From: Gemmatimonadota bacterium
Lineage (GTDB): Bacteria > Gemmatimonadota > Gemmatimonadetes > Gemmatimonadales > GWC2-71-9
Reading direction: 5' to 3'
Assembly: GCA_016874005.1 (NCBI GenBank)
Contig: VGVQ01000004.1
Coordinates: 1 to 64,000 of the forward strand
Length of the DNA stretch: 64,000 bases
A program made the translations under genes and the position numbers. Shown piece by piece: positions 4,892-28,739 of this stretch. Position 1 is the stretch's first letter. Each line of letters opens with the position of its first letter. Under the pieces are notes generated by a model. It was not told where the DNA came from, ran no database searches, and saw only the letters and a list, made by a program, of their open reading frames with translations.

Positions 4892-6871
4892 GTGAGATAC
4901 CATACTCGAACCGCGCTGCTGGTGGCGGCTCTCTTCAGTCCCGCGCTCCTGGCCGGTCAGGCCTCGGTTCGGATCGAGCCGGCCCGCGCCTCGGTGGTCG
5001 CGGGCGACTCGATCCGGTTCCGGCTGGTCGTGACGGACGCCGAGGGCCGAACGATCCCGGCGGATTCCGCGTTCTGGGCCGCGGGGCCGTTCGAGGTGGC
5101 CTCGACATCGCGGGGATTGGTCCGGACCTTCCGGCGGGGACGGGTCCGAGTGATCGCTCGCGCGGCGGGCCGGACCGCGTTCGCCGAGCTCGAAGTCCTC
5201 CCCAAGCCGGCGGCCGCCATCGAGCTTACGGCCGACCAGCTCACCGTCGTGGTGGGTGGTAGGACCGTGGTCCGCGCGATGGTGCGCGATCGCGACCGGG
5301 AGCCGATCGGCGACGCGGCGGTGCGGTTTCGGAGCCTGGATCCGACGTTAGGCAGGGTCAGCGAGGCTGGCGCCGTCGAAGCGATCGGGCCGGGGCGGCT
5401 CAGGATCGAGGCGACCAGCGGGCCCGCCCGGTCGGTCGTCGAGGTCGCGGTCGTTGTCAACCCGGTCGTCGAGGTCGCGGTCCGGGGCCCGGCCGCCGGC
5501 CGAACCGGCGACGTCCTCCGGTTCTCGGCCCTGCTCGCCGGCCCGGGCGGGCGGGAGATTCCCGGCCTCAACCCGGTCTGGTCGGTCACCGGCGAAGGCG
5601 GGACCGTCTACCCAGACGGGGCGTTCGTCGCGACCAGGCCCGGGGCCTATCTGGTGACCGCCACCGTCGGGCAGCGAAGCGCCACCCGGGAGGTCTCGAT
5701 CGCTCCCCGGGTCCACGATCGCCGGGTGGAGCAGGTGACCTCGCTGATCTTCCCACACCTGCAGATCGCCGAGATCTGGCCGATCGGCAACGCGCTGTAC
5801 GCCTCGACGGTCCTCGACCGGCTCTACGTCTTCGACCTGGCCGACCCGGCCAGACCGCGGCTCACCGACTCGGTGATCGTCGACGCTCGGATGATCAACG
5901 ACGTGACCACCACCGCCGACGGGACCATCGGCATCCTCACCCGGGAGGGGGCGTCGTCCCGGAAGAACGGGATCGTCTTTCTCGACCTCGCCGATCCGCT
6001 CCACCCCAAGGTCCTCTCGGAGTACACCGCAACGGTCACCAGCGGGGTGCACAGCGTGGTGGTGGTGGGCCGGCTCGCCTACCTCACCGACAACGGCCAT
6101 CGGATGCTTCGGATCGTCGACTTCGCCGATCCGCGGAATCCCCGCGAGGTGGGTCACTGGCAGATCGAAAACACCGTGGTCACCCGCTCCGACGGGAGCA
6201 GGGGCTCGCCCCGGTCCCCGAGCGACGCCACCGAAGTGAACGGCCGCTACCTCCACGACCTCCAGATCGTCGACGGGATCGCCTATCTGGCCTACCTCAA
6301 GGACGGCTTGGTGATTCTCGACGTCGGCAACGGCATTCGGGGTGGGACGCCCACCAGGCCGGCGTTCGTGAGCCAGTTCGTCTACTCGACCGCCGATTAC
6401 TATCCGCCCGAGATGATCGCCGGGACCCACACCATGTTCCGGTTCGACGACTATCTGGTGGTGGGCGACGAGGTCTTGCCGGCCTTCGCGGATCCCTGGT
6501 CGCGCGACTACGTCAAGACGTTAGGCAGGCTCCACCTCTTCGACGTCTCCGACCTGACGACGCCGAAGCTGGTGGCGTTCTACGACGTCCCGGATCAGGG
6601 CAATCACAACGTCTGGGTCGAAGGCCGCACCATGTACGTGGCCAGCTTCGAATCCGGGCTCAAGGTCGTCGACGTCTCCGGCGAGCTGCGCGGCGACCTC
6701 CGGGCCCAAGGCCGCGAAATCGGGGGCGTCCGGACCGCCGCGTCCACCGGCTTTCGGCCCAACGTCGCGATGGCGTTCAGCGCGATTCCCCACAAAGGAA
6801 TGATCTACACCAGCGACATGAACAGCGGGGTCTGGGTGGCGCGGCTGGCGCCCAAGTCGGTGACACCCTGA
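4892..6871 (+). CDS. Secreted choice-of-anchor B protein with Ig-like and LVIVD repeats
   Basis: 659 residues, GTG start at 4892, signal peptide RYHTRTALLVAALFSPALLAG. Residues about 25-275 contain three bacterial Ig-like (Big_2-type) units: each opens with a strand like VRIEPARASVVAGDSIRF and ends with VRVIARAAG or LVTATVG. The rest is LVIVD repeats (LYVFDLADPARPRL, MLRIVDFADPRNPREVGHW, LHLFDVSDLTTPKLV, LKVVDVSGELR), forming a predicted beta-propeller. It shares the C-terminal plan of the protein at 848 but has a different N-terminal module. The two may once have been adjacent, before the small-gene island came between them. The extracellular ligand is unknown. Confidence 0.75.
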   Translation: MRYHTRTALLVAALFSPALLAGQASVRIEPARASVVAGDSIRFRLVVTDAEGRTIPADSAFWAAGPFEVASTSRGLVRTFRRGRVRVIARAAGRTAFAELEVLPKPAAAIELTADQLTVVVGGRTVVRAMVRDRDREPIGDAAVRFRSLDPTLGRVSEAGAVEAIGPGRLRIEATSGPARSVVEVAVVVNPVVEVAVRGPAAGRTGDVLRFSALLAGPGGREIPGLNPVWSVTGEGGTVYPDGAFVATRPGAYLVTATVGQRSATREVSIAPRVHDRRVEQVTSLIFPHLQIAEIWPIGNALYASTVLDRLYVFDLADPARPRLTDSVIVDARMINDVTTTADGTIGILTREGASSRKNGIVFLDLADPLHPKVLSEYTATVTSGVHSVVVVGRLAYLTDNGHRMLRIVDFADPRNPREVGHWQIENTVVTRSDGSRGSPRSPSDATEVNGRYLHDLQIVDGIAYLAYLKDGLVILDVGNGIRGGTPTRPAFVSQFVYSTADYYPPEMIAGTHTMFRFDDYLVVGDEVLPAFADPWSRDYVKTLGRLHLFDVSDLTTPKLVAFYDVPDQGNHNVWVEGRTMYVASFESGLKVVDVSGELRGDLRAQGREIGGVRTAASTGFRPNVAMAFSAIPHKGMIYTSDMNSGVWVARLAPKSVTP

Positions 6872-6874
6872 TCG

Positions 6875-8248
6875 TCAGGCGGTCTTGCGGAAGGAGAGCA
6901 TCGAGGACTGGAGGTACCGGTCGCCGTCGGCCTCGAATACCGCGAACGGTCGCCAGGTCTCGAGCGTCACCGGCCGGGGCGGGGCGTAGGGCAGCGCGTC
7001 GGCCCCCTTGGCGTAGAACTGGCCCGGGCCGCTCACGAACAGCTCGATCGTCCGGGGCGGGAAGTGGAGCCAGGTGTTGGCCGGGTTGGGAGCGGTCTCG
7101 AGCAACAGCCGGCCATCCTCGACGAACAGGGGCTGTTGGAGCATGACGTCGGCATAGCGGCCCAGCCAGGGCGCCAGGTCGGCCCGGTCGATCGCCAGGG
7201 GCGCCGGGGCCCCCGGCATCCGGACGCCGAGCGCCTCGCGGAACACCACCTCCATGACCTCCTCGTAGAGCGGTATGCCCATCGAGGCGTTGATCGCCAG
7301 GGCGACCGCGAAGCCCGACCCCGGATCGATCCGGAAATGGGCGTTCGAGCCTAACGTCGCTCCATCGTGTCCCAGGATGGTCCTCCCGGCCACCTCGTAG
7401 ATCATCCAGCCGAGCCCGTAGCCGCACAGCTGCCGGTCCACCGCCGCGCGGCACTGTTGCCGCTGCATCTCGGTCACCAGGCCGGGATCGAGAAAGGGCG
7501 AGCCGTCCGGCGCGGTGCCCCCGTCGAGGTGGACCCGGGCTATCGTGAGCAGGTCGCGGACCCGCCCCATCGGGGTCGACCCGGCCGGCGAATGGCCCGG
7601 GATGAAGAAGGGCACCGGCTCGACCAGCCACCCCGCGGGTCCCGGGACATGGCCGATGACGTGGCGCCAGGTCAGGGCTTGTTCCGGCGTCGTGATCACC
7701 GTCTCGAGTCCGAGCGGTCCGGTCAGCACCTCGGCCAGAGCCTGGGGCCACGGTTTCCCGGTGGTGACATCGAGCAGCCGCCCGAGCATGATCATGCCGC
7801 TGTTACAGTAGGAGATCAGCGCGCCCGGTCGATGGTAGAGCCGGTGCTCGTTCAGAAGCTGGATTTGGCCGGCGATGGCATCGGCGTTCTTCCCGGTATC
7901 CTTGAAGAGGGTCCCGACCAGGCCGCTGGTGTGGCAGAGCAGGTGGCGCACCGTGATCGCCCGGGCCCGGTCGTCCGGCGGAGCGAACTCCGGGAGGTAG
8001 TCCATCACCGGGGTATCGAGATTCAGCTTACCGAGGGTGATCTGGCGAGCCACCGCGGTGGCGGTGATCACCTTGGTGACCGAGCCGTAGCTGAAGAGGT
8101 GCTCCGCTGTCGCCGGCTCGCCGGTACGGACGTTGGCGAGGCCGGCCGCCGCGACTTCGACCCTGCCATCCCGCCAGATCGCGATCGAGGCGCCGGGCAG
8201 ACCGTGCTTCTCGAGCGCGTCGGTCAGCAGCGAGGTCCAATCCGTCAT
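6875..8248 (-). CDS. Serine hydrolase, beta-lactamase / class C family
   Basis: 457 residues, no signal peptide seen, so probably cytoplasmic. The class-C beta-lactamase-like motifs are present: SxxK in FSYGSVTKVITA (about residue 53), YxN-type YCNSGM (about 150), and the third box HDGATLGSNAHF (about 295). The C-terminal 120 residues form a separate beta-rich region. Members act on D-peptides, esters or amides, and the substrate cannot be told from sequence. It converges on the LVIVD gene with a three-base gap. Confidence 0.75.
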   Translation of the reverse strand: MTDWTSLLTDALEKHGLPGASIAIWRDGRVEVAAAGLANVRTGEPATAEHLFSYGSVTKVITATAVARQITLGKLNLDTPVMDYLPEFAPPDDRARAITVRHLLCHTSGLVGTLFKDTGKNADAIAGQIQLLNEHRLYHRPGALISYCNSGMIMLGRLLDVTTGKPWPQALAEVLTGPLGLETVITTPEQALTWRHVIGHVPGPAGWLVEPVPFFIPGHSPAGSTPMGRVRDLLTIARVHLDGGTAPDGSPFLDPGLVTEMQRQQCRAAVDRQLCGYGLGWMIYEVAGRTILGHDGATLGSNAHFRIDPGSGFAVALAINASMGIPLYEEVMEVVFREALGVRMPGAPAPLAIDRADLAPWLGRYADVMLQQPLFVEDGRLLLETAPNPANTWLHFPPRTIELFVSGPGQFYAKGADALPYAPPRPVTLETWRPFAVFEADGDRYLQSSMLSFRKTA

Positions 8249-25297: not shown

Positions 25298-26491
25298 TCA
25301 TGGGGGCCCGCTCCGAGTGACCAAGGTGGCCTCGGGGTACGGCGATGCGGTGAGCAGTTCCGACGCCACGCCGCGAAGGTAGCGATCGAAGAACGCCAGG
25401 GTATAGCTGTTGATGATCGCATGGGCCCGGCGTGGGTCGAGTTGGCCGGCCGGTCGGGGGTAGAAGAGCGAGAGGTCGGAGAAGTCGCCGTGGTTGGTCC
25501 CGGAGATGGTGAGGTTGTACCAATCGGCGCTCGATCGGGCCCTGGCGGTGCTGTCCCAGCTGTTCACCAATGCCATGAGTTCCCGGACTTCTTCACGCTT
25601 GTCCTCCGGGTAGTCGAGCGCGTCGTCCATTCCGTGATGAAGTTGGAGGACCGGACGGGTGGTGCCCCGTTCCCGCACGTCGCCGAACAGCTGCCCGTCG
25701 TGGCCGACCGCCGCCTTGACCCTGGGATCATCGGCCGTCATCTGGATCGAGGTCGCTCCCCCGAACGACCACCCGAAGGCGCCGACACGGTCCAGATCCA
25801 GTCGCCCTTGGAACGGCCCGCTGGCCTGCTCGCGCTCGATCTGGTCGAGCACGAAGCGGGCGTCCGCGTTCCAGATCTTGAACACCGGATCGTCGAGGTA
25901 GGCCCAGCTCGCCAGGGCGTCCTTCTTTCCGTCGCCGGTCTCCGCCGGGAACTTGAGGGTGTCGGGCTGGTACGGGGTTCCATCGGCGTACCGAATCGAC
26001 TGGCTGAACCCGAAGTGCTCGATGGCGAACACGACGTAACCGTGGCTCGCCAGCCATTCGGTCGTGAAGGTGGCGCTCCACCGGGTCCAGATGCCGCCGT
26101 GGTTGTAAATCAGGACGGGGAAGGTCGTATCGCCGGCGATCGGGGCTCCTAGAACGGCGTTGGTCCTGGCCTTCCGGGCGGCCCAGGCCCCCAGCCGGCT
26201 GGCGAAGTCGTCGCGCCGGAGCAGGTAGGAGGCGGTGTCGCCGGCGGTTCCCGGCGCGACCGGATACCAGACCTGGACTACCACCCGCCGCCGGTCGTCC
26301 GGGTTGGTGGTGTACGGCTCGGCCCGTGACGAATCGGTCCAGTCGAACTCACGGGTGCCGACGCCGTAGGGGCCGGCCGGGCGCTCGAACGGTCGGTCCG
26401 GGATCTTCGGGCTGACCCGATAGAGAAAGTAGCCGCCGCCCGCGAGCACCAGCGCGGCCACGACCAGGACAACCTTCCAGAAGGTGCGCAC
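25298..26491 (-). CDS. Platelet-activating-factor acetylhydrolase-like alpha/beta hydrolase
   Basis: 397 residues from a GTG at 26491, which gives an N-terminal membrane anchor or signal (FWKVVLVVAALVLAGGGYFL). The in-frame extension further 5' is Arg-rich and runs over the TonB receptor gene. The oxyanion region is NHGGIWTRWSA, then ASHGYVVFAIEHFGFS as in PAF-AH. The nucleophile is in GAFGWSFGGATS (about 257), and the acid and histidine are in DDALDYP / SGTNHGDFSD. Likely an ester or phospholipid acyl hydrolase in the periplasm; substrate unknown. It lies directly downstream of the riboswitch-linked TonB receptor and might be read from the same message. Confidence 0.75.
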   Translation of the reverse strand: MRTFWKVVLVVAALVLAGGGYFLYRVSPKIPDRPFERPAGPYGVGTREFDWTDSSRAEPYTTNPDDRRRVVVQVWYPVAPGTAGDTASYLLRRDDFASRLGAWAARKARTNAVLGAPIAGDTTFPVLIYNHGGIWTRWSATFTTEWLASHGYVVFAIEHFGFSQSIRYADGTPYQPDTLKFPAETGDGKKDALASWAYLDDPVFKIWNADARFVLDQIEREQASGPFQGRLDLDRVGAFGWSFGGATSIQMTADDPRVKAAVGHDGQLFGDVRERGTTRPVLQLHHGMDDALDYPEDKREEVRELMALVNSWDSTARARSSADWYNLTISGTNHGDFSDLSLFYPRPAGQLDPRRAHAIINSYTLAFFDRYLRGVASELLTASPYPEATLVTRSGPP

Positions 26492-26541
26492 GGTGACCTC
26501 ACAATCGGGAGGTGCAAAGCTATCCGGTCCCCGCGATGCCG

Positions 26542-28563
26542 CTACCGGGATCCGATCCGAATCGCGCTGGTCAGGAACACGGCGCGGGTCGCCAGCGGGA
26601 AGAGATAGCGATCGACTCCGTCGGTGTAGCCCGCGGTGTACGCCTCGGCATTGAACAGATTCTGCACCTGCAGCTTCAGATCGAACCGGCCGAGGCCGAC
26701 CTCCGCCAGCAGGTCCGCGGTGGTGTATCGCGGGGTGACGAACCCCGGGTTGCCGTCGTTGGCCAGCTGCGACTGACCGACGTGGCGCAGGCCGATCTCG
26801 AGGTAGCTCCGGCGACCGGGAGACCAGCCGCCGCTCAGGTTGAGCAACGACCCCGGGGTCAGTACCGGCGGGACATCTCGGAAGGTGCGCCCGGTGGACT
26901 CGTCGCTGTACTCCGCGATCCGGGCCCTGAGCAGCGTCGCGTTGCCCCGGATCACGGCGCTCGCCGCCGGACGCCACGTTCCCTCGATTTCGAAGCCGGT
27001 TCGGCTCGACCTCGCGACGTTGCGACGCAGGGGAGTGCCGATGAAGGTGATCGCCCCGATGGCGGCGATTTCGTCGCGGAACCGCATCGCGAAGGCGTTG
27101 GCCGATAGCTCCAACCCCGGGCGGGTGACTCGGGCTCCGACCTCGAGATCGGTGACCTCTTCGGGCCGGACCCGGTCGAGCGGCAGGACGGCGGCCGCGA
27201 GCCCGTCATTGACGTCATCGGCGCCGGCGAAGAGGTCGGCACGGGTAGGTTCTCGGGACGTGCGACCCAGCGAGGCGTGGGCCACGACGCTGGGAGACGC
27301 TCGCCAGGTCATCCCGACTTTCGGGTTCAAGAAGACCCAGTCGATCTCCGGCCGGCCGAAGGTGTTGCTGGGGTCCGGGCGGTACTGAAACGCGGCTCGG
27401 CGGATCTCCAGATCACCATGCAGGTCGACGGCGCCACCATGGTGGGTCACCTTGAGGAATGCGCTCTGTTCCTGTTTGAACCCGGTGTTGGCGTACCCCC
27501 CGCTGCCCGTGTTGGGCGGCAGCGCCAGGGTATGGTCGCGGTGATACTGGCTGGCGTGGCCCCCGGCCACGACACTCCAGCGATCCGTGGTCAGCTCGGT
27601 GGTGCCGAAGAGGCCGTACCAGATGTGGGCGAGGCCGAAGCGGAGCAGGCCGGTGCCGGCCGAGAGGTCATAGTGGCCCGCGGCGCTGTTGCGGTAGCCG
27701 GTGACGGACCCGAGCAGGTTGGGCGCCAGGGTGCGACTATAACGAAGGCTCACCATCTCCTGATGAAAGTCGTCGCGCTCGCCGGGCTGCATCGGATTGA
27801 CTCGCCGGTTGGCGGCGAGAGCGACGTCGGAGGCGGCGAAGTACGCTAACTGGGTCTTGGAGCGGCCGGCGAAGGCCGTGAGCTTGAGCGCGTCCCGGTC
27901 GCCGAACCAGCCCGCCGAACCGAACCCGGACCAACCCTCGTTGCCGGAGCGCTCCCGGTAGCCATCGGTCGAGTGGATCGCGGCTCGGCCGTACCCGGCC
28001 CAGGCTCCCCTGAGCCCGGTCGCACCGCCCACACTGGCCCGGGTGGTCCCGAACGAGCCGGCGGTGACCTCGGCCTCGCCGAAACGCGGGGTCGCGGCGA
28101 CCGCGATCGACTCGAAATTGAGCGAGCCGCCGAAGGAGGCGGTGCCGAAGCCACTCGAGCCGACGCCCCGATGGACCCGGACCGACTGGACCGAGTTCAT
28201 GAAGTCGGGGATGTTCGAGAAATACAGGACCTGATCTTCCGGGTCGTTGAGCGGCACCCCGTCGAGCGAAATGGTGAGCCGGGTCTGATCGATGCCTCGG
28301 AGCCGGAGGTAGCTGTAGCCCGAGTAGCCGCCCGCGTCCGACGTGGCGGTGATGCCAGGTAGCCGGCTCAACGCCAGGGGCACGTCCTGGCCGTGATGCT
28401 CTCGACGAATCGCGGCCCGCTGGAGCGTGGTCCCGGCGGTCGGGGCCGCCGCGCCCGCTCGGGTCGCGCGGACGACGAGCGTCTCGAGGGTGTCGGCGGG
28501 TCGTCTCGACGTGGCGGTGTCCTGGACGGCGGTCGCGACGAGCAGCAGGGTCGGGGTCCACAT
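26542..28563 (-). CDS. TonB-dependent outer-membrane receptor, probably for thiamine or a thiamine precursor
   Basis: 673 residues; ATG at 28563 gives MWTPTLLLVATAVQDTA as signal region. The plug domain holds ETLVVRATRAG, LSRLPGITATSD, YLRLRGIDQTRLTISLDGVP and LNFES. It is followed by a 22-strand-type barrel with TonB-receptor repeats (FLNPKVGMTWRASPS, LFAGADDVNDGL, LSGGWSPGRRSYLEI) and ends in an aromatic/hydrophobic strand. A TPP riboswitch lies about 70 bases upstream on the same strand, so I infer uptake of thiamine or its pyrimidine/thiazole precursors, switched off when TPP is plentiful. Energy would come from TonB/ExbBD encoded elsewhere. Confidence 0.85.
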   Translation of the reverse strand: MWTPTLLLVATAVQDTATSRRPADTLETLVVRATRAGAAAPTAGTTLQRAAIRREHHGQDVPLALSRLPGITATSDAGGYSGYSYLRLRGIDQTRLTISLDGVPLNDPEDQVLYFSNIPDFMNSVQSVRVHRGVGSSGFGTASFGGSLNFESIAVAATPRFGEAEVTAGSFGTTRASVGGATGLRGAWAGYGRAAIHSTDGYRERSGNEGWSGFGSAGWFGDRDALKLTAFAGRSKTQLAYFAASDVALAANRRVNPMQPGERDDFHQEMVSLRYSRTLAPNLLGSVTGYRNSAAGHYDLSAGTGLLRFGLAHIWYGLFGTTELTTDRWSVVAGGHASQYHRDHTLALPPNTGSGGYANTGFKQEQSAFLKVTHHGGAVDLHGDLEIRRAAFQYRPDPSNTFGRPEIDWVFLNPKVGMTWRASPSVVAHASLGRTSREPTRADLFAGADDVNDGLAAAVLPLDRVRPEEVTDLEVGARVTRPGLELSANAFAMRFRDEIAAIGAITFIGTPLRRNVARSSRTGFEIEGTWRPAASAVIRGNATLLRARIAEYSDESTGRTFRDVPPVLTPGSLLNLSGGWSPGRRSYLEIGLRHVGQSQLANDGNPGFVTPRYTTADLLAEVGLGRFDLKLQVQNLFNAEAYTAGYTDGVDRYLFPLATRAVFLTSAIRIGSR

Positions 28564-28633
28564 ACCGGGCCTCCTCGAGTTCAGGCGGCGGCCGGAGTGG
28601 CGGTGTCGCGGAGGTGCTGCGTCACGCGCCGCG

Positions 28634-28706
28634 CTCCCTCCGCCGGTGTCAACCGGATCAGGTTCCAAGGGACTTTCTCAACCTCGCTCGCGGCGAGGTA
28701 CCCCTG
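28634..28706 (-). promoter_or_regulatory. TPP riboswitch (THI element)
   Basis: Read on the minus strand, the conserved blocks appear in order. AGGGGTACC is the 5' arm and GGTTGAGA is the J3-2 region. AGTCCCTTGGAACCTGATC contains the highly conserved CCUGAUC pyrimidine-sensing core. CGGTTGACACCGGCGGAGGGA is the pyrophosphate-binding arm and closing GGGA. It ends about 70 bases before the receptor ATG at 28563, so control of translation or early termination is likely. On the plus strand, only 34 bases separate it from the start of the divergent hydrolase gene. Confidence 0.9.
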
Positions 28707-28739
28707 GCGGCAACCGGCAATGTAGGCGAACTTCGACCG

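Follow-up and report, generated by a model that had tools for sequence, protein, structure and literature searches.

The window, as we call the whole stretch of 64 kb analysed here, carries on its reverse strand a complete TPP riboswitch aptamer (RF00059, from P1 to the 3' end; 28617..28715), followed by the gene of a TonB-dependent receptor of 673 amino acids (P0001; 26542..28563), a predicted thiamine importer of the outer membrane. The Rfam search of the window placed the aptamer at 28715-28617 (-) with 62.6 bits (E 6.8e-10) against a gathering score of 54.3 bits. The covariance search with the TPP model, proposed in a first-pass annotation of this DNA, thereby returned a full-length match (model positions 1-105 of 105), which was the sole match above any Rfam family's cut-off in the 64 kb window. 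No second TPP riboswitch was found in the window's draft genome (3.88 Mb, 97% complete) at E 0.001. The same annotation had recognised the conserved TPP-sensing blocks GGTTGAGA, CCTGATC and CGGCGGAGGGA and had put them about 70 bases before the receptor gene; all three lie within the RF00059 match, the last of them ends about 70 nt before the likely receptor ATG at 28563, and the aptamer 3' end lies about 54 nt before it. In 17 other related genomes an aptamer directly precedes the orthologous receptor, and because of this conservation we regard the aptamer as more than a chance match. In an alignment of 52 related aptamers (A3), 10 of 19 predicted pairs show changes on both sides; P1 lies outside the A3 consensus and is visible solely in the Rfam alignment of the window aptamer. 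Six of 58 aptamers were omitted from A3 (L032, L046, L054, L056, L057 and L083), namely five of greater length and one member of the near-duplicate G019 pair. The observation of a TPP riboswitch before a TonB-dependent receptor is confirmed, and the earlier proposal that the riboswitch controls this gene is supported.

The receptor most likely starts at ATG 28563, which is preceded by a GAGGAGG Shine-Dalgarno sequence at 28576-28570; the listed start of the open reading frame, TTG 28668, falls inside the aptamer and is not a likely start. Single-sequence folding predicts a hairpin at 28565..28595 (reverse strand) that would occlude the ribosome-binding site (GAGGAGG, 28570-28576). In this fold the 13-nt stretch around the site has a mean unpaired probability of 0.38, with values of 0.01-0.10 in the core. 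Because the hairpin has no T-run, translational control seems more likely than termination in the window leader, and control by a terminator was rejected for the window, where the terminator scan gave no terminator-like site. A hairpin ending just before the ATG was also seen in three leaders of the same genus (L052, L087 and L088). The L042 leader holds one terminator-like hairpin, with 0.7 expected by chance, and the expression platform therefore appears to vary among relatives; in the L050 leader a strong hairpin with TTTTT was noted by eye, which the scan did not call. An alternative ON fold was not found in the window leader, whose unconstrained fold holds aptamer and hairpin together; all these leader folds are predictions from single GC-rich sequences. 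The promoter scan of the window leader region found no sigma-70-like promoter. The divergent gene P0003 (28740..30746, forward strand; PF20091, Abhydrolase_10) begins 25 bases from the aptamer 5' end, and the two promoters must therefore overlap with one another, with the riboswitch DNA or with the beginning of the P0003 coding sequence. P0003 is a neighbour and not part of the system; among the related loci compared, the window alone has a homologue of it at this place.

Both receptor domains, Plug (PF07715) and TonB_dep_Rec_b-barrel (PF00593), score over their cut-offs, and an AlphaFold model built with 39 sequences reached a mean pLDDT of 88 and a pTM of 0.88. The structure comparison suggested earlier bore out the resemblance to TonB receptors, with PqqU as the nearest solved structure (Z 38.1, rmsd 2.4, 612 aligned) and YncD, BtuB and FecA next within about 3 Z units, but no thiamine receptor structure was recognised among the matches listed. 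The modelled fold fits a receptor of small cofactors and does not fix the ligand; reading a substrate from it was given up, as these four neighbours do not decide between substrates. The gene downstream on the same strand (25298..26497), an alpha/beta hydrolase with a PAF-AH_p_II match, starts about 44 nt behind the receptor gene and had been proposed as a member of the regulated unit. No hydrolase homologue was found behind the receptor in any of the 17 other genomes (0/17), some of whose sequences end soon after the receptor, and we rejected the hydrolase as a conserved operon partner.

Receptor and ThiC among the Gemmatimonadota

The search for TPP riboswitches in the window's genome and 60 relatives (61 genomes) gave 58 matches in 53 genomes. 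The DNA around all 58 matches, some of it cut by contig ends, was examined for the first downstream gene. This gene is the receptor or its orthologue in 18 genomes, at 41-67% identity to the window's receptor in the alignment, and thiC for 38 of the 58 matches (36 assigned by ORF cluster, L064 and L069 by ThiC coordinates). The remaining two matches precede thiM (L075) and an alcohol-dehydrogenase-like gene (L032). The latter, at 6001-7227 and read by eye as zinc-dependent, follows the second TPP riboswitch of G023, and a thiamine role for it is not obvious. At L075 the riboswitch is followed by thiM and a gene for a ThiE-ThiD fusion, both read from the sequence, with ThiE also matched by its family model; the genome, G043, has the receptor too and no ThiC, and judged from its genes it salvages precursors.

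Of the 18 receptor genomes 2 have ThiC (PF01964), versus 36 of the 43 others. The two genomes with both, G041 and G051, have two riboswitches each, one per gene. The same exclusion holds in 298 genomes sampled from the phylum, in which the receptor was called at E 1e-100: 77 have the receptor without ThiC, 187 ThiC only, 30 neither, and 4 (G041, G051, G139 and G212) both, so that the totals are 81 for the receptor and 191 for ThiC (Fisher p 6e-41, a p-value that ignores shared ancestry). Five genera (g1, g40, g41, g61 and g62) each hold receptor-only and ThiC-only genomes, and therefore the exchange of one for the other is likely to have taken place at least twice. One of the five is the genus of the window, with thiC in G002 and the receptor in the window's genome (G000), G001, G003, G004 and G005. 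Seven genomes (G010, G011, G012, G013, G025, G028 and G034) have no ThiC, receptor or TPP riboswitch; most of these keep a strong TMP-TENI/ThiE match.

Two aptamer types are visible in A3, each common to thiC and receptor leaders, and the window aptamer shares 82% identity with the thiC aptamer of G002 and 89% with the receptor aptamer of G037. These shared types (A3; L078, L045) hint that aptamers have been passed between thiC and receptor genes. One study describes thiamine synthesis as far rarer in Gemmatimonadales and Longimicrobiales than in Palauibacterales (PMC10469786), a pattern that, as far as the passages of that study go, agrees with the receptor/ThiC distribution found here; those passages do not mention TonB. 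For a relative, Pseudogemmatithrix, the passages of its description report growth without a vitamin need and an isolation medium that held yeast extract (PMC11271474), and given the yeast extract this is weak evidence either way.

Carrier, kinase and the proposed path to thiamine pyrophosphate

Two further genes co-occur with the receptor. A PnuC-family carrier (PF04973) occurs in 18 of 18 receptor genomes versus 5 of 43 others, and a stand-alone NadR-like kinase, scoring at least 152 bits, in 17 of 18 versus 1 of 43 (G006). The exception among the receptor genomes is G001, whose PnuC is cut by a contig end. In the window's genome the two genes lie outside the window, adjacent on contig C1 (pnuC at C1:571601-572134, E 4.3e-56; the kinase start overlaps the pnuC end by 31 nt), and are unlinked to the riboswitch, which is on a different contig. 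In several relatives pnuC and the kinase gene adjoin the receptor gene, and in four loci (L044, L165, L174 and L185; L044 and L174 being close relatives) riboswitch, receptor, pnuC and kinase follow one another in this order on the same strand. Near the pair in the window's genome the search gave no Rfam family, and an NAD riboswitch near PnuC, looked for in 12 loci, turned up in none and was rejected. In the unit drawn by the first-pass annotation, the hydrolase should be replaced by the unlinked PnuC-kinase pair as functional partners.

Thiamine pyrophosphokinase (TPK, PF04263) was found in 0 of 61 genomes, with 7 of 14 positive in the control set. ThiL was matched in 61 of 61, 47 of which pass the cut-off, with a model that also picks up weaker paralogues; G001 has ThiL fragments only, and the window's genome scores 234 bits against a cut-off of 184. 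ThiE over the cut-off was not found in the window's genome (best 21 bits), a draft at 97% completeness in which single absences could be gaps. Among the relatives the ThiE match is strong in G043, at about 198 bits, and modest, at 51 to 100 bits, in G001, G004, G005 and G049. Because ThiC and a ThiE over the cut-off are both missing, the window's genome would need thiamine from outside. By these matches it has the last enzyme, which turns TMP into TPP, and lacks a route that starts from thiamine through PF04263. As the candidate for the step from thiamine to TMP we infer the NadR-like kinase, which may be an undescribed vitamin B1 kinase.

For the receptor, the gene content supports the earlier prediction that it imports thiamine or a precursor. 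As cargo, thiamine itself or one of its phosphates is more likely than HMP or thiazole, because the genome keeps ThiL and has neither ThiC nor a ThiE over the cut-off. Comparative genomics gives strong support to the reading of the receptor as a thiamine importer. We consider a thiamine-salvage cassette under a TPP riboswitch, with a probability of about 0.75, the explanation of the whole; the direct results behind it are the aptamer, the receptor, the gene content and their co-occurrence. The bacterium, placed in the Gemmatimonadota by its relatives, would have lost thiamine synthesis and live by salvage. The receptor would carry thiamine across the outer membrane, the PnuC-family (PnuT-like) carrier would pass it through the inner membrane, the stand-alone P-loop kinase would phosphorylate it to thiamine monophosphate, and ThiL would make TPP. 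When intracellular thiamine pyrophosphate is sufficient, the riboswitch would shut off the receptor, presumably by acting through the ribosome-binding site.

It might also be that the cargo of the receptor is a phosphate of thiamine (TMP or TPP) or a thiamine precursor and that the PnuC-kinase pair serves something else. ThiL is kept, so imported TMP would need no thiamine kinase, and precursor salvage does exist in the group, as seen from ThiE in G043 and other genomes and from the G043 thiM operon, in which the ThiE-ThiD fusion stands under its own riboswitch. Yet in the window's genome HMP and thiazole could not be joined, because no ThiE over the cut-off accompanies the missing ThiC, and carrier (18/18) and kinase (17/18) follow the receptor, the pair lying behind the riboswitch in the four loci named. 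We therefore hold this alternative to be unlikely.

Predicted NAD-salvage relatives of the cassette

The Gemmatimonadota kinases relate to the ribosylnicotinamide-kinase half of NadR (AAA_28, PF13521), and the nearest solved relatives are NadR proteins (1lw7, 6gye, 8x7f and 9x6f). Three kinases of about 180 amino acids have an AAA_28 match and no match to the nucleotidyltransferase model PF01467, whereas three Bacteroidota partners carry both. We compared 31 Gemmatimonadota kinases with two of four Bacteroidota NadR (L180 and L181 were missed by the pattern) and, by eye, with three solved NadR. Unlike the NadR sequences compared, the kinases have S84 and Y88 in 31 of 31 and H91 and D128 in 30 of 31, and in place of the Gln/Glu after the Thr of the NadR DTDxxT motif they have Val, Cys, Thr, Met or Ile. 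These differences would fit a switch of acceptor, with thiamine in place of nicotinamide riboside. Mapping them to the NadR acceptor pocket was tried and dropped, the passages of a paper on L. lactis NadR (PMC7221760) giving no RNK acceptor residues.

We scanned genome contigs with the receptor alignment and took the best 80 of 241 loci, of which 75 are labelled as Gemmatimonadota or its genera, 1 as an unplaced 'bacterium' (L146) and 4 as Bacteroidota. With a TPP model built from the 52 aptamers, a riboswitch was detected upstream of the receptor in 73 of these best 80, that is in 73 of 76 non-Bacteroidota versus 0 of 4 Bacteroidota loci. The seven without one are the four from Bacteroidota, which have no Rfam TPP match either, L173, where the contig ends, and L141 and L144. 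The latter two, from Gemmatimonadota, show the order pnuC, kinase, receptor, and neither close to them nor in the rest of their genomes was a TPP riboswitch found; either the riboswitch was lost or they keep a state before its acquisition. A near-palindrome in L144 (2440-2533) matched a microRNA family on both strands below the cut-off, which is surely chance. Of the loci kept (best 80 of 241), 28 have PnuC and 26 have the kinase within flanks of up to 4 kb; for the remaining loci, as for the window, these genes must lie elsewhere or be absent.

In Bacteroidota the receptor homologues are found in other company. In L180, L181 and L189 PnuC and a NadR-like gene come after the homologue; the NadR-like gene is a full-length NadR (PF01467 and PF13521) in L180 and L189, and NAMPT lies upstream in L189. 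In L186 PnuC is upstream and an ADP-ribosylglycohydrolase gene stands between receptor and NadR. In the L186 genome (Xanthocytophaga flavus) thiC, thiM and a TonB-dependent receptor other than the homologue each carry a TPP riboswitch. The window receptor shares 37-39% identity (447-472 bits) with the receptors of these Bacteroidota NAD cassettes versus 23-27% (188-217 bits) with two Bacteroidota TPP-linked receptors. Because the Bacteroidota homologues sit with PnuC and full NadR and have no TPP riboswitch, the comparison suggests that an NAD-salvage cassette has been re-purposed for thiamine. Nicotinamide riboside and thiamine are both small and positively charged, and each has an aromatic ring and a primary alcohol as the site of phosphorylation; because the two cargoes are so alike such a conversion is plausible. 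With somewhat better than even confidence we propose that in Gemmatimonadota the cassette came under TPP riboswitch control, that the kinase shed its adenylyltransferase half and changed its acceptor site, giving a NadR-derived thiamine kinase that would feed ThiL, and that thiC was lost repeatedly thereafter. In the receptor tree the Gemmatimonadota minus L141 and L144 stand on one side of a branch with a support of only 26, and therefore the tree does not give the direction of a change from NAD to B1; the trees do not root this change, and one of them omits L180, which has a stop in the matched range.

Several of these results speak against salvage of thiamine: the PnuC and kinase genes of the window's genome lie apart from the riboswitch, PnuC and kinase match models of nicotinamide-riboside proteins, the Bacteroidota receptor homologues lie with NAD genes, the L141 and L144 cassettes have no TPP riboswitch, and 30 of 298 genomes have neither receptor nor ThiC. 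The cassette might hence still import nicotinamide riboside for NAD, the TPP control being cross-regulation. Such a role would suit the Gemmatimonadota PnuC, which passes the nicotinamide-riboside transporter model TIGR01528, the NadR structures nearest to the kinase, and the neighbours of L180, L181, L186 and L189. However, the TPP riboswitch is confined to the non-Bacteroidota among the best 80 of 241 loci, receptor and ThiC largely exclude each other, and the kinase, with no NMN adenylyltransferase domain, departs from NadR at S84, Y88, H91, D128 and the Gln/Glu position; we judge this role improbable. That the aptamer is a relic or has no regulatory role, before an ordinary siderophore receptor, is the least credible alternative, since the weak, below-cut-off matches of general siderophore and heme receptor models and the lack of a sigma-70-like promoter in the window are outweighed by the aptamers that precede the receptor in 18 genomes and in 73 of the best 80 of 241 loci, by the paired stem changes and by PqqU, an importer of a metal-free cofactor, as the nearest fold, even if a fold does not fix the substrate.

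Comparison with known systems

If the salvage reading is right, the single riboswitch gives a genomic rule for telling makers of vitamin B1 from importers in a widespread, mostly uncultured phylum. It would further put forward a specific candidate enzyme for the step from thiamine to TMP that is missing where genomes have ThiL and no PF04263 TPK, and offer a case in which receptor, carrier and kinase, once specific for an NAD precursor, may have shifted to thiamine. TPP-controlled receptors are already known; the swap with ThiC and the candidate kinase are new, and in the open-access literature we found no report of a ThiC-receptor exchange or of a NadR-like thiamine kinase. According to the passages of a 2009 study, predicted thiamin receptors form three separate clusters (PMC2771747), and therefore receptors of this kind were regarded as diverse even then.

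The closest known system in the passages of the published work is OMthi - PnuT - Tnr3 of Bacteroides thetaiotaomicron, which likewise has a TPP riboswitch before a TonB-dependent receptor, a PnuC-family carrier and thiamine salvage; this system, with TPP riboswitches on the OMthi receptor gene and on pnuT-tnr3, was tested by deletion (PMC5613172). Those passages also describe that B. thetaiotaomicron keeps thiamine synthesis and has tnr3 (called thiamine pyrophosphorylase in PMC5613172) behind pnuT. The system described here differs in that TPK (PF04263) is found in 0 of 61 genomes, a NadR-like kinase stands beside PnuC and ThiC is usually lost. The receptor comparison covered TPP-linked receptors from two other Bacteroidota genomes, which are distant from the window's at about 23-27% identity.

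Within the same order, the TPP-riboswitch-controlled thiC genes have the same aptamer types as the window; their riboswitch governs synthesis, not import, and is found almost only in genomes without the receptor. The carrier belongs to the same family as PnuC and PnuT (PF04973; PnuC structure 4qtn), has the same length and passes TIGR01528 for PnuC, but its proposed substrate, thiamine, is taken from context, and no tested set of residues distinguishes PnuT from PnuC here. With the ribosylnicotinamide kinase domain of NadR the kinase shares the AAA_28 P-loop family, Walker A and the DTD motif. Unlike NadR it is a stand-alone protein without a nucleotidyltransferase domain, and it has a conserved DTDLxSTVVYxxHYY where NadR has DTDxxTQ or TE, and D128 where NadR varies.
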